From Acidimicrobiales bacterium (GTDB taxonomy: Bacteria > Actinomycetota > Acidimicrobiia > Acidimicrobiales > RAAP-2): a stretch of 42,547 nt of DNA. The notes beneath the pieces were generated by a model. That model was given only the letters and a program-made list of their open reading frames with translations, made no database searches and was not told where the DNA came from. Position numbers and translations under genes: made by a program. The stretch is from contig JANXWA010000019.1 of the NCBI GenBank assembly GCA_025351385.1, positions 1-42,547 of the forward strand. The letters run 5' to 3'. Shown piece by piece: positions 10,182 to 34,901 of this stretch; positions within the stretch are counted from its first letter, which is position 1, and each line of letters opens with the position of its first letter.

Positions 10182-10275
10182 GGAGAGGTGGGTGAGTTCG
10201 GTTTAAACCACATTCCTGCTAAGAATGCGGCCTGCGAAAGTGGGCCCGAGGGTTCAAATCCCTCCCTCTCCGCCA
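10182..10275 (+). tRNA. tRNA-Ser (anticodon GCU)
   Basis: The acceptor stem pairs GGAGAGG (10182-10188) with CCTCTCC (10265-10271), followed by discriminator G and an encoded CCA (10273-10275). The anticodon arm is CATTC-CTGCTAA-GAATG, giving anticodon GCT, which reads AGC and AGU serine codons. A long variable arm pairs GGCC with GGCC around TGCGAAAGTG, as expected for a class II tRNA, and the T arm is GAGGG-TTCAAAT-CCCTC. The 94-nt length including CCA is typical for serine tRNAs. Confidence 0.96.
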
Positions 10276-27990: not shown

Positions 27991-28022
27991 CGATCTCGTT
28001 TGGGATTGAACGGCATCGTTGC

Positions 28023-28028
28023 TAGCGT
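28023..28028 (+). promoter_or_regulatory. Leaderless -10 element for the deoC operon
   Basis: TAGCGT ends 7 nt before GTG 28036 and would drive the five tightly linked genes up to 33813. Confidence 0.5.
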
Positions 28029-28035
28029 TGCGAAG

Positions 28036-29025
28036 GTGAGCACCCCGCTTCGCCTCGTCGGCGCGCAAGATCGCAACGTGAGGATCCCGCTGGCGAGTTC
28101 GGTGCCGGCCGTCGAGAACGAAGCACAGCTGCGAGCACTGCTGGCCAGCCTCTCGGGTGTCGACGCGGTCGGTGCCGAGGCTCGCGCCGCCAAGCTCGCC
28201 ACTCGCTCGATCAAGAAGTCGACCAAGCTGACGGTCCTGGACCTCGCCATCTCCATGGTCGACCTCACGACGCTCGAAGGCGCCGACACGCCCGGGCGGG
28301 TGACGTCGCTCTGCACCAAGGCAATGCGCCCGGACCCGCGCGACCCCACCGTGCCGTCGGTCGCCGCCGTGTGCGTCTACCCCGACCTCGTGGCCCACGC
28401 TCGATCGGTGCTGGGCGACTCGAGTGTCGCCGTCGCCTCGGTGGCGACGTCGTTCCCCTCGGGACGCGCCTCGCTCAAGGTCAAGCTCCTCGACGTGGCA
28501 GAGGCCGTCGCCGCCGGCGCGGATGAGATTGACATGGTGATCGATCGCGGAGCCTTCCTCTCAGGACGGATCGGCCAGGTCTTCGACGAGATCGTCGCGG
28601 TCACGGAGGCGTGCGGCGATGCGCACCTGAAGGTGATCCTCGAGACCGGTGAGCTCGTCACTTACGACAACGTGCGCCGGGCCAGCTGGATCGCGATGCT
28701 CGGCGGCGCGGACTTCATCAAGACCTCCACCGGCAAGGTCACCGTCTCGGCCACGACGCCGACGGCGCTCGTGATGCTCGAGGCGGTGCGCGATTTCGCT
28801 GAGACGACCGGTCGCGTCGTCGGGGTGAAGGTGGCGGGCGGGATCCGTACCTCGAAGGACGCGATCCGCTACCTGGTCCTCGTGAACGAGACCGTCGGGG
28901 CCACGTGGCTCAGCGCGGAACTCTTCCGCTTCGGCGCGTCGTCACTGTTGAACGACCTCTTGATGCAGCGACTCAAGCAACGACGCGGCGCGTACGTTCG
29001 CTCCGACGAATTCAGTGGAGACTGA
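28036..29025 (+). CDS. deoC: Deoxyribose-phosphate aldolase DeoC (long, eukaryote-like form)
   Basis: This is a 329-residue class I aldolase that splits 2-deoxyribose-5-phosphate into glyceraldehyde-3-phosphate and acetaldehyde. The Schiff-base lysine is in DFIKTSTGK and the second active-site lysine in GVKVAGGIR. The N-terminal DLTTLEGADTPGRVTSLCTKA and the length (short bacterial forms are about 220-260) match the longer clade that includes human DERA. GTG 28036 is chosen because of the leaderless -10. It heads an operon with an aldehyde dehydrogenase, a shortened ALDH, a purine nucleoside phosphorylase and a phosphosugar mutase. Confidence 0.95.
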   Translation: MSTPLRLVGAQDRNVRIPLASSVPAVENEAQLRALLASLSGVDAVGAEARAAKLATRSIKKSTKLTVLDLAISMVDLTTLEGADTPGRVTSLCTKAMRPDPRDPTVPSVAAVCVYPDLVAHARSVLGDSSVAVASVATSFPSGRASLKVKLLDVAEAVAAGADEIDMVIDRGAFLSGRIGQVFDEIVAVTEACGDAHLKVILETGELVTYDNVRRASWIAMLGGADFIKTSTGKVTVSATTPTALVMLEAVRDFAETTGRVVGVKVAGGIRTSKDAIRYLVLVNETVGATWLSAELFRFGASSLLNDLLMQRLKQRRGAYVRSDEFSGD

Positions 29026-29026
29026 C

Positions 29027-30493
29027 ATGACCGAGAGGCAACTAGCGAACTCCCAGTTGGGCTTCCTCGACTACGACCCCGCGCCCGAGTCGGCCACCAT
29101 CGCGCGCCTGCAGCCCAGCTACGGGCTCTTCATCGACGGGAAGTTCACCGACCCCGCCGGCCACGAGCAGTTCGCGTCGGAGAACCCCGCCAACGAGTCC
29201 GTGCTGGCGACCGTCGCTCAGGCCAGTGTCGATGACGTCGACCGGGCCGTCGCCTCGGCCCGTCGCGCTTATACGAAGGTGTGGTCCAAGACGACCGGCA
29301 CCGAGCGGGCCAAGTACCTGTACCGCATCGCGCGCATCATCCAAGAGAGGGCCCGTGAACTGGCCGTCGTCGAGACCCTGGACAACGGCAAGCCGATCCG
29401 CGAGTCGCGCGACGTCGACATCCCGTTGGCGGCCGCCCACTTCTTTTACTACGCCGGGTGGGCCGACAAACTGGACCACGCCGGCTTCGGCGCCGATCCA
29501 CGCCCCCTCGGCGTCGCCGGGCAGATCATCCCCTGGAACTTCCCACTGCTGATGGCCGCCTGGAAGCTGGCCCCCGCGCTGGCGGCCGGCAACACCTGCG
29601 TGCTGAAGCCCGCCGAGACGACGCCGCTCAGCGCGCTGGTGCTCGCCGAGATCCTCCAACAGGCCGAACTGCCCGACGGCGTGGTGAACATCGTGACCGG
29701 CGACGGGGCGACCGGTGCGGCCCTGGTCGCGCACCCCGACGTCGACAAGATCGCCTTCACCGGCTCGACGGAGGTGGGACGCCTGATCCAGCGCAGCGTC
29801 GCCACGGGCGACAAGCGCCTCACCCTCGAGCTCGGGGGCAAGGGGGCCAACATCGTCTTCGACGACGCGCCAATCGACGAGATGATCGAGGGCATCATCG
29901 ACGGTATCTTCTTCAATCAGGGGCACGTGTGCTGCGCCGGGTCTCGCCTACTGGTCCAAGAGACGGTGGCCGACGAGGTACTGCGCCGGCTGGTACGACG
30001 CGTCGAGCAGTTGCGCGTGGGCGACCCGATTGACAAGAACACCGACGTCGGGGCGATCAACTCCGCCGCCCAGCTCGCACGGATCCAAGAGCTCAGCGCC
30101 TTCGGCGAGAGCGAGGGCGCGACCCGCTACACCAGCTCGTGCGTGCTGCCCGAGAAGGGCTACTGGTTCGCCCCCACCGTCTTCGCCGACGTCGCACAGT
30201 CGCACCGCATCGCGCGCGACGAGATCTTCGGGCCGGTGCTGTCGGTGCTGACCTTTCGCACGCCCGAAGAGGCCGTCGCGAAGGCCAACAACACGAACTA
30301 CGGGTTGGCGTGCGGGGTGTGGAGCGAGAAGGGGAGCCGCACGCTCTGGGTCGCGGAACGACTCCGGGCCGGCGTCATCTGGGCCAACACCTATAACCGG
30401 TTCGACCCGACGAGTCCCTTTGGCGGCATGCGCGAATCGGGCTTCGGTCGCGAGGGCGGCCGCCACGGACTGGAGGCGTACCTCAATGTCTGA
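29027..30493 (+). CDS. NAD(P)-dependent aldehyde dehydrogenase
   Basis: This is a 488-residue aldehyde dehydrogenase. The oxyanion Asn lies in IIPWNFP, the cofactor-binding Lys in CVLKPAETTP, the general-base Glu in LELGGKGANIV and the catalytic Cys in NQGHVCCAGSR; the motif FTGSTEVGR completes the NAD site. The ATG at 29027 has GTGGAG 6 nt upstream and lies one base after the deoC stop. Placed directly after DeoC, the natural role is oxidation of the acetaldehyde released from deoxyribose-5-phosphate; this is inferred from context. The end overlaps the next gene by 8 nt. Confidence 0.94.
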   Translation: MTERQLANSQLGFLDYDPAPESATIARLQPSYGLFIDGKFTDPAGHEQFASENPANESVLATVAQASVDDVDRAVASARRAYTKVWSKTTGTERAKYLYRIARIIQERARELAVVETLDNGKPIRESRDVDIPLAAAHFFYYAGWADKLDHAGFGADPRPLGVAGQIIPWNFPLLMAAWKLAPALAAGNTCVLKPAETTPLSALVLAEILQQAELPDGVVNIVTGDGATGAALVAHPDVDKIAFTGSTEVGRLIQRSVATGDKRLTLELGGKGANIVFDDAPIDEMIEGIIDGIFFNQGHVCCAGSRLLVQETVADEVLRRLVRRVEQLRVGDPIDKNTDVGAINSAAQLARIQELSAFGESEGATRYTSSCVLPEKGYWFAPTVFADVAQSHRIARDEIFGPVLSVLTFRTPEEAVAKANNTNYGLACGVWSEKGSRTLWVAERLRAGVIWANTYNRFDPTSPFGGMRESGFGREGGRHGLEAYLNV

Positions 30494-31340
30494 CCGGCTC
30501 GACGTCCGAAAGACCTACAAGCTCCTCATCAACGGCGCGTTCCTGCGCTCGGAGTCGGGCCGCAGCTACGAAGTCACGACAGCGAAGGGCGCCTTCCTCG
30601 CCAACGTCGCCCAGGGGTCGAGGAAGGACCTGCGCGATGCGGTCGTCGCCGCGCGCGCAGCCCAACCCAAGTGGTGGGGCGCCACGGCCTACAACCGCGG
30701 CCAGGTGCTGTACCGCCTCGCCGAGATGGCCGAGTCGCGCCGCGACGAGCTCGCCGATCACGTGGCCCAGTGCGAGGGGCTCGCCGCGAAGGCGGCCCGA
30801 GCGACGGTGTCGCGCTCGATTGACCGGATCGTTTGGTACGCGGGCTGGACGGACAAGGTCGCCCAGGTCCTCGGTGGCACGAACCCGGTCGCGGGGCCCT
30901 TCTTCAACTTCTCGGTACCGGTGCCCAGCGGCGTCGTCGCGGTGATCTGCGATCAGGACTCCTCGCTCGAGGCTTTCGTCGACGCCGTGGCGGCACCGCT
31001 GTGCGTTGGCAACGCCGTGATCGCCGTCGCGAGCCAATGTCGCCCGACACCGGCGGTCCTGCTCGGTGAGATGACGGCCACGTCGGACTTTCCCGGAGGG
31101 GTCCTTAACATCGTCACGGGCCTCACCGACGAGCTGGCGCCCATCCTCGCGTCCCACGAGGACGTCGACGGCATCGACCTGGGCGGCGTCGCGCCCGGGG
31201 AGGCGAGCGAGCTCTCCGCCGCGGCCGCCGGCTCGATCAAGCGGGTGCTTCGTCCCGACGGACGCGACCTCTCGACCTCGCTGCGACGACTACGTGCCTT
31301 CGTCGAGACGTCCACCGTATGGCACACGATCGGACAGTGA
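30486..31340 (+). CDS. Shortened aldehyde dehydrogenase-like protein without catalytic residues
   Basis: This is a 284-residue paralogue of the N-terminal NAD-binding part of aldehyde dehydrogenases, about 200 residues shorter than usual. The fold is recognisable (KLLINGAFLRSESGRSYEV, DRIVWYAGWTDKVAQVLGG, PGGVLNIVTG), but the IPWNFP Asn site reads VICDQDS, the KPAE Lys site reads VASQCRPTP, the FTGSTEVG loop reads IDLGGVAPGE, and the catalytic Glu and Cys segments are missing altogether. It starts inside the end of the true ALDH gene (8-nt overlap) and ends in the PNP start (TGATG), so both borders are clean and no degraded tail is present. It could be a scaffold or partner subunit of the ALDH. 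An enzymatic role as an aldehyde dehydrogenase is unlikely. Confidence 0.85.
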   Translation: MSDRLDVRKTYKLLINGAFLRSESGRSYEVTTAKGAFLANVAQGSRKDLRDAVVAARAAQPKWWGATAYNRGQVLYRLAEMAESRRDELADHVAQCEGLAAKAARATVSRSIDRIVWYAGWTDKVAQVLGGTNPVAGPFFNFSVPVPSGVVAVICDQDSSLEAFVDAVAAPLCVGNAVIAVASQCRPTPAVLLGEMTATSDFPGGVLNIVTGLTDELAPILASHEDVDGIDLGGVAPGEASELSAAAAGSIKRVLRPDGRDLSTSLRRLRAFVETSTVWHTIGQ

Positions 31341-32158
31341 TGAAGAACCCCTACAAGCTCGCTCGTCGCGCCGCCGACGAACTGCGCGAGAAGAGCGGCG
31401 TCGACCACTACCACGTCGCCATCGTGCTGGGTTCGGGCTGGCGTGAGGGCGCCGTCGCGCTAGGCACTCCCACCAGCCAGGTCGCGACGACGTCGCTCTC
31501 CGGCTTCGTCGCACCGACCGTCGCGGGCCACAGTGGACAGATCCTTTCGCTCGAGGTGGCCGACCTCCATGTGGCGCTGGTTGCCGGTCGGGTGCACCTC
31601 TACGAGGGCAACACCGCCGACCAGGTCGTCCATCCGGTGCGCACTGTCATCGCCGCCGGCGCGACCAAGGTCGTACTGACCAACGCTGCCGGCAGCATCG
31701 ACCCCGAGTGGAGTCCCGGTCGCGTCATCATCATTCGCGACCATCTCAACCTGACCGCGACCTCGCCGATGGAGGGCGCCGCTCCGCCCAAGGGCTACGG
31801 CGCGCGCTTCGTCGACCTCACCGACCTCTACAGCCTTCGATTGCGCACGGCCGGGCACCGCGCGGTGCCCGACCTAAGCGAGGGCGTCTACGCCGGCTTT
31901 CGCGGGCCCCACTACGAGACTCCCGCCGAGATAGCGATGGCGCGCACGATGGGCGCGAGCCTCGCCGGGATGTCGACGGTGCTCGAGGCAATCGCCGCGC
32001 GACACCTCGGCGCCGAAGTGCTGGGTCTCAGCCTCGTCTCCAACGCCGCGGCCGGCGTGTCGAAGGGCCCGCTGGACCACCGAGAGGTCCTCGAAGCCGG
32101 ACAGTCGGCGGCGGCCTCGCTCGGGGCGCTGCTGGCCCACATCATCCCGGTCCTGTGA
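31340..32158 (+). CDS. punA: Purine nucleoside phosphorylase (trimeric, 6-oxopurine type)
   Basis: This is a 272-residue family-2 purine nucleoside phosphorylase that cleaves inosine, guanosine and their deoxy forms with phosphate to base and (deoxy)ribose-1-phosphate. Signatures are the phosphate loop VLGSGW, GRVHLYEGN, TNAAGSID, the base-site Glu in FRGPHYETPAE, GMSTVLEAIAARH and SLVSNAAAG with the Asn that favours 6-oxopurines. The ATG at 31340 shares one base with the preceding stop (TGATG); a GTG at 31337 or an ATG at 31319 are alternatives. The end overlaps the mutase start as GTGA. Confidence 0.94.
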   Translation: MKNPYKLARRAADELREKSGVDHYHVAIVLGSGWREGAVALGTPTSQVATTSLSGFVAPTVAGHSGQILSLEVADLHVALVAGRVHLYEGNTADQVVHPVRTVIAAGATKVVLTNAAGSIDPEWSPGRVIIIRDHLNLTATSPMEGAAPPKGYGARFVDLTDLYSLRLRTAGHRAVPDLSEGVYAGFRGPHYETPAEIAMARTMGASLAGMSTVLEAIAARHLGAEVLGLSLVSNAAAGVSKGPLDHREVLEAGQSAAASLGALLAHIIPVL

Positions 32159-33813
32159 ACCCGGCGCTCGCCGAGCAGGTGTCGGCGTGGATCGCCCACG
32201 ACCCCGACGACGACGACCGCGCCGAGCTCCAGGCGCTGCTCGACGCCGGTGACGAGGCGCAACTCGTACGGCGGTTCGCCGCGCCGCTGACCTTCGGCAC
32301 GGCTGGTCTGCGCGGTCCGGTGATGGCGGGGCCGGCCGGGATGAATCGTCTCACGGTTCGCCGCGCGACCCAGGGAGTCGTCGCGTGGCTCACCGAGATC
32401 GGCGCTGACGCCACTCGGGGCGTCGTCGTCGGACGTGACGCGCGACGGGGATCGGAGGCCTTCAACGACGAGGTCGTCGGCGTCTTGCTGGGTGCGGGCG
32501 TCGAGGTCTTCGAGATGCCCGGTCCCCTCCCCACCCCGCTGGTGGCGTACTGCGTCAAGGCCCTCGGTGCGGCGGCGGGCATCATGGTCACCGCGAGCCA
32601 CAACCCGCCCCTCGACAACGGCTACAAGCTCTACGCGAGTGATGGTGCCCAGATCATCCCCCCGAACGATGAGATCGTCGAGCGTCACGCCCGGTCCGCA
32701 CCCACCCCGACGCTGGCGGACCGAGCCAGTCCACTCCACCACCGCGTGCCCGACGAGCTGCTCGCCCGGTACCGGGCGCACTTCGCCGAGCGTTTCGGCG
32801 CGACCGACGGGAAAGGTCTTCGAATCGCCTACACGCCGCTGCACGGCGTCGGCGGGGCGTTCATGATGAGACTCTTCGCCCAGGCCGGCTTCGGTTCGGT
32901 GACCGCGGTCGCCGAACAGTTCGCACCGGACGGGACCTTCCCCACCCTGCCGTTCCCCAACCCCGAAGAGCCCGGCGCCCTGGACTTGGCGATGGCCTGC
33001 GCCGACGGAATCGGATCCGACCTGGTGATCGCCAACGACCCCGACGCTGACCGTCTCGGTGCGGCCGTGCGCGGTCCGACGGGGTGGCACCTCCTGCGGG
33101 GCGACGAGATCGGGTGGCTGCTCGCGTCGTCGCTGCTGCGCACGATGGCCGACCCCCATGACGTCGTGGCGACGACGATCGTGTCCTCGACCCTGCTCGA
33201 AGAGATGGCCCGCGAGGCGGGGGTCAGCTTCGCCCGGACTCTCACCGGCTTCAAGTGGATATCGCGGGCCGCCGGGGAGGGCGTGCTGCGCTTCGGCTAC
33301 GAGGAGGCGCTCGGCTACGCGGTCGACCCGGCGGTCGCTGACAAGGACGGGATGTCGGCCGGTCTGGCGTTAGCGCGCCTGGCCCACGACCTCGCGCGCG
33401 AGGGCCGGACACTGCTCGACCGGCTCGACGAGATCGAGTCGCGGTTCGGCGTCCACGCTATTTCGCAGCTCTCGATACGGGCCAGCGGTCCCGGAGGCAG
33501 CCACGCGATTAAAGAGACCGTGGCGGCGTTGCGAGAGCGACCACCGACGGCCCTCGGTGGCGTCGACGTCAGCGAAGTCGTCGATCTCGCGCGCGGCCAC
33601 GCCGGACTGGCGCCGACCGACGGGGTTCTGTTGGTGCTCGGCACGTCGGGGAGGGTCGTCGTTCGCCCTTCGGGCACCGAGGCGAAGTTGAAGGCCTACA
33701 TCGAGGTCACGACGTCGCCGACGGACGTGTCGTCGCTCGAGAGCCAACGGGCGCAGGCGGCGGGGTTGGTCTCGCTGATCCGCGCGGACCTCGAGGGTCT
33801 GTTGGCCTTCTAG
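32155..33813 (+). CDS. Phosphohexomutase-family phosphosugar mutase (PGM2/PMM-like, likely phosphopentomutase)
   Basis: This is a 552-residue alpha-D-phosphohexomutase. The phosphoserine loop is VTASHNP (S148), the metal loop is DPDADR, the sugar-specificity loop is GYEEALGY and the phosphate-binding loop is RPSGTEAKLK. The early FGTAGLRGPVMAGP and the 550-residue length are those of the PGM2-like group, whose human member acts as phosphopentomutase. In this operon, between the nucleoside phosphorylase and DeoC, conversion of (deoxy)ribose-1-phosphate to the 5-phosphate is the missing step; that assignment is by context. The GTG start overlaps PNP, and the TAG stop shares CTAG (33810-33813) with the convergent add gene. 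Confidence 0.93.
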   Translation: MNPALAEQVSAWIAHDPDDDDRAELQALLDAGDEAQLVRRFAAPLTFGTAGLRGPVMAGPAGMNRLTVRRATQGVVAWLTEIGADATRGVVVGRDARRGSEAFNDEVVGVLLGAGVEVFEMPGPLPTPLVAYCVKALGAAAGIMVTASHNPPLDNGYKLYASDGAQIIPPNDEIVERHARSAPTPTLADRASPLHHRVPDELLARYRAHFAERFGATDGKGLRIAYTPLHGVGGAFMMRLFAQAGFGSVTAVAEQFAPDGTFPTLPFPNPEEPGALDLAMACADGIGSDLVIANDPDADRLGAAVRGPTGWHLLRGDEIGWLLASSLLRTMADPHDVVATTIVSSTLLEEMAREAGVSFARTLTGFKWISRAAGEGVLRFGYEEALGYAVDPAVADKDGMSAGLALARLAHDLAREGRTLLDRLDEIESRFGVHAISQLSIRASGPGGSHAIKETVAALRERPPTALGGVDVSEVVDLARGHAGLAPTDGVLLVLGTSGRVVVRPSGTEAKLKAYIEVTTSPTDVSSLESQRAQAAGLVSLIRADLEGLLAF

Positions 33814-34901
33814 GCCGAACGCAGCGCGGCGTAGCCGGGCTTGATCACCGAGTTGATCATCGCGAGGCGGGTGTCGAACTCGTAGAACGCGCTCTTCGCG
33901 GCGTTCAGCGTGAGCCACTCCATGTCGTCGAGTGTCCATCCGAACGTCGTGGCGCACGACTCGAACTCACTCGAAAGAGTGATGCCGCTCATCAGGCGGT
34001 TGTCGGTGTTGAGCGTCACGCGAAAGCGCAGCCTTCGCAACAGCTCGATCGGGTGGGCGGCGATCGATGCGGCGGCGCCGGTGTGCACGTTGGAGGTCGG
34101 GCAGACCTCGAGGGGGATGCGCCGGTCGCGGATGTAGTTGGCCAGTCGACCGAGACGGTACACGCCGTCGACCTCGGCGATGTCGTCGACGATCCGCACG
34201 CCGTGGCCGAGACGCTCGGCGTTGCAGAACTGCACGGCCTCCCAGATCGAGGGCAGCCCGAACGCCTCGCCGGCGTGGATCGTCATGTGGAAGTCCTCGC
34301 GTTGGACGAGGTGGAACGCCCTCAGGTGGTGGGTCGGCGGGAAGCCGTCCTCCGGTCCGGCGATGTCGAAGCCGCAGACGCCCTGGTCGCGGAACTCGAC
34401 CGCGAGCTCGGCGATGGTCTCGCTCAGGTTCGCTTGGCGCATCGCCGACAGGATCGTGCGCACGATGACGTGGTGCCCCTCTCGGGCCGCCGTGGCGGTG
34501 CCGTGTGCGAAGCCGTCGAGTACGGCGCGCACGACCTCGTGGAGGGTGAGTCCGCCGATGAGGTGCAGCTCGGGGGCGAATCGGATCTCGGCGTAGACGA
34601 CGCCGTCGCGCGCGAGGTCGAGGGCGGTCTCGCTGGCGACGCGCTCGAGCTGGTCCTTCGTCTGCATGACCGCGACGGTGTGGGCGAATCCCTCGAGGTA
34701 ACGAACGAGGTCGCTGCCGGGAGTGTCGGCGATGAACCACCGGCCCAACTCGTCGGGGTCGTTGGTGGGCAGTCCCGTGTAGCGGTTCTCGTGGGCCAGT
34801 TCGAGCACGGTGGCGGGGCGCAGGCCCCCGTCGAGGTGGTCGTGGAGCAGCACCTTCGGCGCCCGTTCGATCAGATCACGGGTGAGGCGTGTCGACGACA
34901 T
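33810..34901 (-). CDS. add: Adenosine deaminase
   Basis: This is a 363-residue zinc enzyme that converts adenosine and deoxyadenosine to inosine forms, which PNP can then cleave. Zinc and catalytic motifs are HDHLDGG (H20, H22), TIHAGEAFG (zinc His and catalytic Glu), the His of AERLGHGVRI, and VTLNTDNRLMS (zinc Asp). The length is typical of actinobacterial Add. The ATG at 34901 lies 6 nt after a TAGCCT -10, so it has its own promoter although deoA ends only 29 nt upstream in the same direction. Confidence 0.95.
   Translation of the reverse strand: MSSTRLTRDLIERAPKVLLHDHLDGGLRPATVLELAHENRYTGLPTNDPDELGRWFIADTPGSDLVRYLEGFAHTVAVMQTKDQLERVASETALDLARDGVVYAEIRFAPELHLIGGLTLHEVVRAVLDGFAHGTATAAREGHHVIVRTILSAMRQANLSETIAELAVEFRDQGVCGFDIAGPEDGFPPTHHLRAFHLVQREDFHMTIHAGEAFGLPSIWEAVQFCNAERLGHGVRIVDDIAEVDGVYRLGRLANYIRDRRIPLEVCPTSNVHTGAAASIAAHPIELLRRLRFRVTLNTDNRLMSGITLSSEFESCATTFGWTLDDMEWLTLNAAKSAFYEFDTRLAMINSVIKPGYAALRSA

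Follow-up and report, generated by a model that had tools for sequence, protein, structure and literature searches.

A stand-alone gene for the C-terminal pseudo-aldehyde dehydrogenase domain of ALDH16 in an actinobacterial deoC operon

Bacterial ALDH16, as described by Liu and Tanner in 2019, reportedly has three domains, with the protruding beta-flap carried on the C-terminal domain and not on the N-terminal part. In the Loktanella enzyme LsALDH16 (PDB entries 6mvr, 6mvs, 6mvt and 6mvu), one polypeptide carries first a catalytic aldehyde dehydrogenase (ALDH) part and then a C-terminal domain whose cofactor fold is non-functional. In two reviews, two ALDH16 subunits are described as mimicking the classical four-subunit ALDH assembly, the C-terminal domain being a non-functional cofactor domain (PMC8160307), and this domain is credited with assembly and possibly regulatory roles, while no known substrate is listed for the human protein (PMC8160307, PMC10650815). 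Human ALDH16A1 is presented there as a gout-linked pseudoenzyme that works through protein interactions and is reported to be missing the catalytic residues altogether (PMC10650815). A parallel from further afield is the TbPRMT1 ENZ/PRO heterotetramer, in which the active partner is completed by a paralogue that is cofactor-dead and whose Rossmann fold is altered (PMC10211241).

The window considered here, the whole 42,547-nucleotide stretch of DNA that was analysed, resembles the Loktanella system in that a catalytic ALDH part precedes a C-terminal domain whose cofactor fold does not function. However, it encodes these in two genes that overlap by 8 nucleotides. Human ALDH16A1, which belongs to the same family by name and was compared by description only, differs in that it lacks the catalytic residues whereas the catalytic part in the window is intact; the likeness to TbPRMT1 is an enzyme-pseudoenzyme analogy only, the enzyme family being unrelated. 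The ALDH16 family is thus already known, but no description of a split ALDH16 with a separately encoded C-terminal domain, or of a link between ALDH16 and deoC, here seen in two phyla, was found among the papers listed from the open-licence literature, covered by titles and the openings of abstracts and exclusive of the primary ALDH16 paper.

The deoC operon and its short gene

Deoxynucleosides are broken down by a phosphorylase, a mutase and the deoxyribose-phosphate aldolase DeoC, which releases glyceraldehyde-3-phosphate and acetaldehyde, the latter being disposed of by an ALDH. The gene row in the window matches this biochemistry and can therefore be read as a deoxynucleoside-degrading set. 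It begins with a long-form deoC (28000..29025, + strand; 341 aa, start codon uncertain), identified by Pfam DeoC and by TIGR00126 at 175.6 bits against a cut-off of 117.3. This is followed on the same strand by a catalytically complete ALDH (29027..30493, +), hereafter N; by the short open reading frame whose product we call C (30486..31340, +); by a purine nucleoside phosphorylase (31319..32158, +; NF006054, 291 bits against a cut-off of 218); and by a phosphohexomutase-family enzyme (32155..33813, +) that matches Pfam PGM_PMM I-IV, scores below the glmM and pgm cut-offs and is likely to act as the phosphopentomutase of the pathway. An adenosine deaminase gene (33810..34901, − strand; NF006847, 552 bits against a cut-off of 412) is convergent with the row. 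Neither N nor C received an NCBIfam name, since the best matches among those listed all fell under their cut-offs.

The frame of C is open throughout, from ATG to TGA, and encodes 284 aa. It starts within the last codons of the N gene, and the 8 nt common to the N stop and the C start are ATGTCTGA (30486..30493, +), a junction of −8 being the commonest one (78 of 192 distinct pairs). GGAGG, 9 nt 5′ of the ATG and inside the N gene (30472..30476, +), is the likely ribosome-binding site of C. At the other end the phosphorylase gene has two possible starts, ATG 31340, which lies in the C stop codon (TGATG), or ATG 31319, and overlaps C in both cases. The original prediction of a fully open frame coupled by overlaps on both sides thus stands.

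The short gene product as the C-terminal domain of ALDH16

Among all PDB sequences, the best match of C was to residues 500-739 of Loktanella ALDH16 (6mvr), at 113.5 bits, and the next protein reached 89.6 bits; the whole 6mvr chain gave 139.4 bits, a higher value because the N-terminal part of ALDH16 also matches C weakly. N, searched by phmmer, likewise found its best PDB match in this chain, with 496.1 bits for residues 10-475 and 552.9 for the full length; the second-ranking protein had 417.2. A profile of 24 C proteins aligned with 6mvr residues 500-766 at 203.2 bits over profile positions 8-287, whereas the runner-up, at 154 bits, covered positions 3-256 only, so that among the best hits the tail of C is matched by ALDH16 alone. 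The predicted structure of C (mean pLDDT 91.4, pTM 0.89) retrieved three ALDH16 entries at the top of a Foldseek search (query TM 0.89-0.90, E 5e-25 to 2e-24; next entry TM 0.81, E 1e-22). With VIA-align, however, the ALDH16 entries ranked 26-28, with Z of 35.7-35.8 against a best of 36.6, which is a tie with ordinary ALDHs. Since this superposition does not discriminate between ALDH16 and the other ALDHs, C is identified by its sequence, profile and tree.

In a tree of the NAD-binding part, which included the ordinary ALDHs of the window genome with one of the seven left out, all 17 of 17 C domains formed one clade with 100/100 support, two of them cut from fused proteobacterial proteins; the 17 N domains also formed one clade, with modest support (84/64). 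The two proteobacterial rows stood apart from the actinobacterial rows in both clades alike, which indicates that N and C diverged before those lineages did. A very long C branch was seen for one genus with genomes of roughly 1 Mb.

Four features place the pair with ALDH16: C is homologous over its whole length to the ALDH16 C-terminal domain, it is devoid of the catalytic residues, it bears the protruding beta-flap instead of the N part, and N is of the ALDH16 type with the catalytic Cys, as in bacteria (present in 193/193 split and 7/7 fused N parts). The short gene of the window is therefore a separate gene for the ALDH16 C-terminal pseudo-ALDH domain, and N and C together are a split, two-gene ALDH16. 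What had been taken for a subunit of an undescribed kind is, in this respect, a familiar domain. The two parts do not share one polypeptide, being encoded by two genes in the window and in 192/192 distinct actinobacterial-type pairs, and for this reason the pair is classed as a split relative of ALDH16 rather than as a canonical member.

C is not an ordinary full-length ALDH with complete NAD-binding and catalytic domains, its match to Pfam Aldedh (PF00171) being confined to model positions 5-232 of 461. Alignment of the two window proteins bears out the reported loss of Asn, Lys, Glu and Cys from C. Asn171 of N is aligned to Asp158 of C (30957..30959, +) and Lys194, the catalytic or cofactor Lys, to Val181 (31026..31028, +); Glu268 is opposite a Pro of C in one alignment and a gap in the other, and Cys302 is without a counterpart in either. 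When identical sequences were taken once and incomplete ones excluded, the four residues were present in all 193 distinct split N proteins and all seven fused N parts, and absent from all 195 distinct split C proteins and all seven fused C parts. Other positions are retained: a Glu at the position of ALDH Glu197 is found in 124 of the 195 C proteins, and Arg-Lys-Asp at C residues 46-48 (30621..30629, +) is invariant in 21 aligned split and fused C domains and absent from the window N.

The anatomy of the two proteins is complementary. From Asp-Lys to the next Pro-x-Gly-Val there are 11 residues in N (165 of 172 matched, of 193) and 22 in C (164 of 185 matched, of 195). The longer segment corresponds to the oligomerisation beta-flap, C residues 125-147 (30858..30926, +), with strands at 131-134 and 139-147 in the model; in the model of N, helix 131-152 is followed by strand 163-167 with no intervening strand of at least three residues. 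Measured from Tyr(AGW) to Trp(NFP), the flap region of N is 28 residues long in 184/193 proteins, against 32, 35, 36 and 38 in ordinary ALDHs of the same genome, a control of only four out of seven, the other three not having been recovered. These lengths were counted from alignments because the flap regular expression matched 0/3 ordinary ALDHs. The window N ends in LEAYLNV, before the C-terminal oligomerisation strand, whereas ordinary ALDHs of the genome continue into this last strand (e.g., FLNIKSVW, FTNIKSYY); as N tails vary between 11 and 67 residues past GFGxE, the missing strand was judged from the tails as read and not counted. C, on the other hand, ends with the last-strand pattern (..TVWH..), found in 194/195 C proteins, and its modelled C-terminal strand, residues 273-281 (31302..31328, +), superposes on the C-terminal end of ordinary ALDHs, of which it represents the last strand.

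With N short of the flap and last strand, and C having both without a catalytic domain, the two proteins divide one ALDH architecture between them. The earlier description of C as only the NAD-binding part was right as to the missing catalytic domain, but the beta-flap and the C-terminal oligomerisation strand are also kept: C consists of a Rossmann fold and the oligomerisation parts, and it is the catalytic domain that it has lost. When N was modelled alone, from a shallow alignment of 22 rows and without a control, pLDDT was low at 299-304, a segment containing Cys302, and at 455-477, which would fit with a need for a partner.

Distribution, gene order and fused counterparts

Of the 198 class genomes surveyed, 72 contained C (E <= 1e-30) and 70 contained N (E <= 1e-165). 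The two occurred together in 68 and were both missing from 124; four genomes had C alone and two had N alone, all six of these being cut by contig ends. These counts are not independent, since 40 of the 72 C-bearing genomes come from the genus with genomes of roughly 1 Mb. Among 61 relatives, N was detected in 33 and a C relative (E < 1e-70) in 34, some of these being fragments on contig ends and the extra one itself lying at a contig end, and C was present in 71 of 296 genomes of the phylum. Long-form deoC (E <= 1e-80, plus one fragment) follows the same pattern: it occurred in 69/198 class genomes, all of them among the 74 with N or C, and in the five of these 74 that were without it N or C lay at a contig end. 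The 19 genomes that had only a distant deoC contained neither N nor C.

The succession of deoC, ALDH and short ALDH gene recurs in other actinobacteria, being found in 80/80 named loci (the best 80 of 591 relatives; deoC 2.2 kb off in one), in 20/20 phylum regions (in two of which deoC and N lie 1.9 and 2.6 kb apart) and in 17/17 further loci with upstream sequence (three of 20 cut). In the class regions deoC preceded N in 14 of the 15 with upstream sequence, C being cut off in two and five of 20 regions being cut before deoC; in the fifteenth, G178, deoC lay about 4.3 kb upstream. The named loci include Streptomyces, Blastococcus, Geodermatophilus, Amycolatopsis, Knoellia and Microbacterium. 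Orthologues with the same kind of truncation were thus plentiful: none of the 192 distinct complete actinobacterial-type pairs is fused, 160 overlap, C ranges from 265 to 317 aa, and a full-length catalytic copy was seen at the position of C in none of them. N and C starts in other genomes were set by rule, and individual overlap lengths may be off.

Within contigs, in the regions read, no frameshifted or missing C was seen beside an intact N. Four congeneric genomes, 93-97% complete (G013, G016, G026, G214), contained no long-form deoC, N or C, and G021 had deoC and part of N, cut by a contig end. In another congeneric genome, G028 (96%), 141 deoC residues are fused in one open frame to the final 43 residues of C; N has disappeared and the flanking genes remain, so that either a single deletion or a misassembly removed most of the deoC-N-C module at once.

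The fused form was met on proteobacterial plasmids, where, in 10 of the 12 loci read, a single open frame immediately behind deoC covers both N and C. Seven of these are annotated coding sequences of 772-799 aa (Sinorhizobium, two Paracoccus, Caballeronia, Phyllobacterium, Nitratireductor and Pseudochrobactrum) and three lie in unannotated records (Rhizobium, Shinella and a second Caballeronia). The Ponticoccus locus is cut by the record start, and the copy of a second Phyllobacterium looks frameshifted, its N part being spread across two frames. Nonomuraea, an actinomycete in the same collection, has the split form after deoC. The fused proteins share with the window the deoC neighbour and the same two domains, with the same residues lost from the C domain in the seven aligned, and differ in being single open reading frames; in the four aligned for identity (Sinorhizobium, Paracoccus, Ponticoccus and Phyllobacterium) the C domain is 38-39% identical to the window C.

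Probable role of the catalytically dead subunit

Collectively these results are probably best explained by a split ALDH16 in which C is an obligate structural subunit that docks on N, the pair oxidising acetaldehyde derived from DeoC; the complex, its stoichiometry, the need of N for C and the substrate are what we infer from the gene and protein comparisons. Given that the two proteins are anatomically complementary, C most likely docks on N as one protomer of a classical ALDH dimer does on the other, where it would complete the N fold and the active-site loops. If C sits as it does in the fused protein, an N-C heterodimer would result, and two heterodimers would make a tetramer-like N2C2. 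Translational coupling through the overlapping stop and start would hold the N:C ratio near 1:1, and the pair would probably turn the acetaldehyde released by DeoC into acetate during deoxynucleoside catabolism. The original prediction had left the choice between a structural and a regulatory partner; it is the structural partner of the neighbouring ALDH that accounts best for the data, and a regulatory or scaffold role is now a rival to it.

That C might be no more than a decaying tandem duplicate, kept in frame by operon position and overlap alone, was denied by the original prediction and is scarcely credible. It is true that every catalytic residue has gone and that the evolutionary rate of C is about double that of N: in pairwise comparisons of 37 close relatives (NG86), dN/dS of C had a median of 0.229 (range 0.090-0.543; 488 of 666 pairs, dS < 1.5) against 0.119 for N (0.048-0.303; 467 of 666), and was higher for C in 428/428 common pairs. 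Maximum likelihood was applied to the eight closest pairs, with several dS values saturated. However, even the maximum for C is well short of the value near 1 expected under relaxed selection. C is constrained, though less than the catalytic subunit, as would be expected for a structural partner. Decay is likewise contradicted by the recurrence of the same truncation and length across the phylum and by retention of the pair in genomes of about 1 Mb, and the fused proteobacterial form shows that the residue losses are older than the lineages. A decaying gene was thus ruled out by dN/dS, conserved length and co-retention with N, and the possibility that a full-length copy was truncated recently was dismissed, since the domain in the proteobacterial fusions spans the same extent and shows the same losses.

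Two further readings accept that C is functional. C could be a regulatory or scaffold subunit that, for example, tethers DeoC to the ALDH for acetaldehyde channelling and is dispensable for ALDH folding and activity. The product of DeoC is a toxic, volatile aldehyde, and both this and the co-occurrence of deoC, N and C in fixed order are what such a scaffold would lead one to expect. Yet the fusion partner of C in the proteobacterial loci read is N and not DeoC, C keeps those oligomerisation parts that are missing from N, and no DeoC contact site is indicated, so we regard a scaffold as unlikely. More improbable still is a homo-oligomer of C with an unrelated role, such as NAD(P) or nucleotide sensing, whose place in the operon would be historical. 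An intact Rossmann fold in the model and the frequent retention of the Glu at the Glu197 position speak for it, but the cofactor-site Lys is absent from every C protein, co-occurrence and adjacency with N are near-perfect, and in other organisms C is fused to N. As to the suggestion in the original prediction that C may hold DeoC-derived acetaldehyde near the active ALDH, the presence of the oligomerisation parts in C points to completion of the ALDH quaternary structure rather than to binding of substrate.

The structural-subunit reading leads to a broader proposition, to which we give about an even chance, namely that ALDH16 occurs in two forms, one fused and the other an obligate N2C2 heterotetramer of two proteins, whose catalytic subunit has lost its entire oligomerisation domain and obtains it from a catalytically dead partner that is translated separately. 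If so, what is tertiary structure in proteobacteria is quaternary structure in actinobacteria, and the link to deoC in both groups would make disposal of deoxyribose-derived acetaldehyde the ancestral job of ALDH16. The split and fused forms make a clean fission/fusion pair in which the passage from quaternary to tertiary contacts can be studied, and the deoC link in two phyla provides a concrete substrate hypothesis for ALDH16. Moreover, with the dead domain naturally encoded apart, it can be left out, restored or exchanged while every protein stays whole, which allows a simple reconstitution test of its role. In Streptomyces, where a transcriptome study gives deoC as SCO4914 and purine nucleoside phosphorylase as SCO4917 (PMC6302529), the N and C genes should adjoin SCO4914.

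Deoxynucleoside genes downstream of the pair

The split ALDH16 genes, encoding a catalytically complete ALDH (N) and a short pseudo-ALDH (C), are followed in the window on their 3′ side by genes for a purine nucleoside phosphorylase, a phosphohexomutase-family enzyme and an adenosine deaminase (31319-34901). The phosphohexomutase-family enzyme scores under the cut-offs for both glmM and pgm. Together with deoC, the phosphorylase, the mutase-family enzyme and the deaminase would make up a near-complete route of deoxynucleoside degradation. Elsewhere, the window carries a tRNA-Ser (gct) at 10182-10275.

In a genome of the same genus (G028), contig C21 joins 141 deoC residues, within one reading frame, to the 43 residues that end C (extracted region L251, 1522-2175); N is absent, and the phosphorylase and mutase are intact. 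Either loss of the module by deletion or an assembly error would account for this.

deoC types

In the survey of the window's class (198 genomes), a long type of deoC is confined to genomes with the ALDH16 pair. A distant type is confined to genomes lacking it. Genomes bearing on the two types include G042 and G078 in the class survey and G059 among the relatives. Two deoC matches each contain one in-frame stop, TAA in G009 (contig C77, 6342-7349) and TGA in G031 (contig C28, 47536-48549); the stops perhaps lie upstream of the true start or are assembly errors.

Unusual ALDH16 loci

Actinobacterial-type deoC-N-C operons occur in two MAGs labelled as other phyla, Rubrivirga NP52 (locus L159) and Acidobacteria G2_35 (L174), which may reflect mis-binned contigs or horizontal transfer. 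The widest gap seen between N and C, 1.4 kb, is at locus L233. One genus with genomes of about 1 Mb (loci L199-L206) has kept the pair even though an initial survey gave these genomes just 1-4 ALDH-like candidates apiece; its C forms a very long branch in the tree. On a Phyllobacterium plasmid, a fused ALDH16 (L098, 4486-5865) has its N part split over two frames and no annotated CDS, and looks frameshifted; the same record holds a second matching place.
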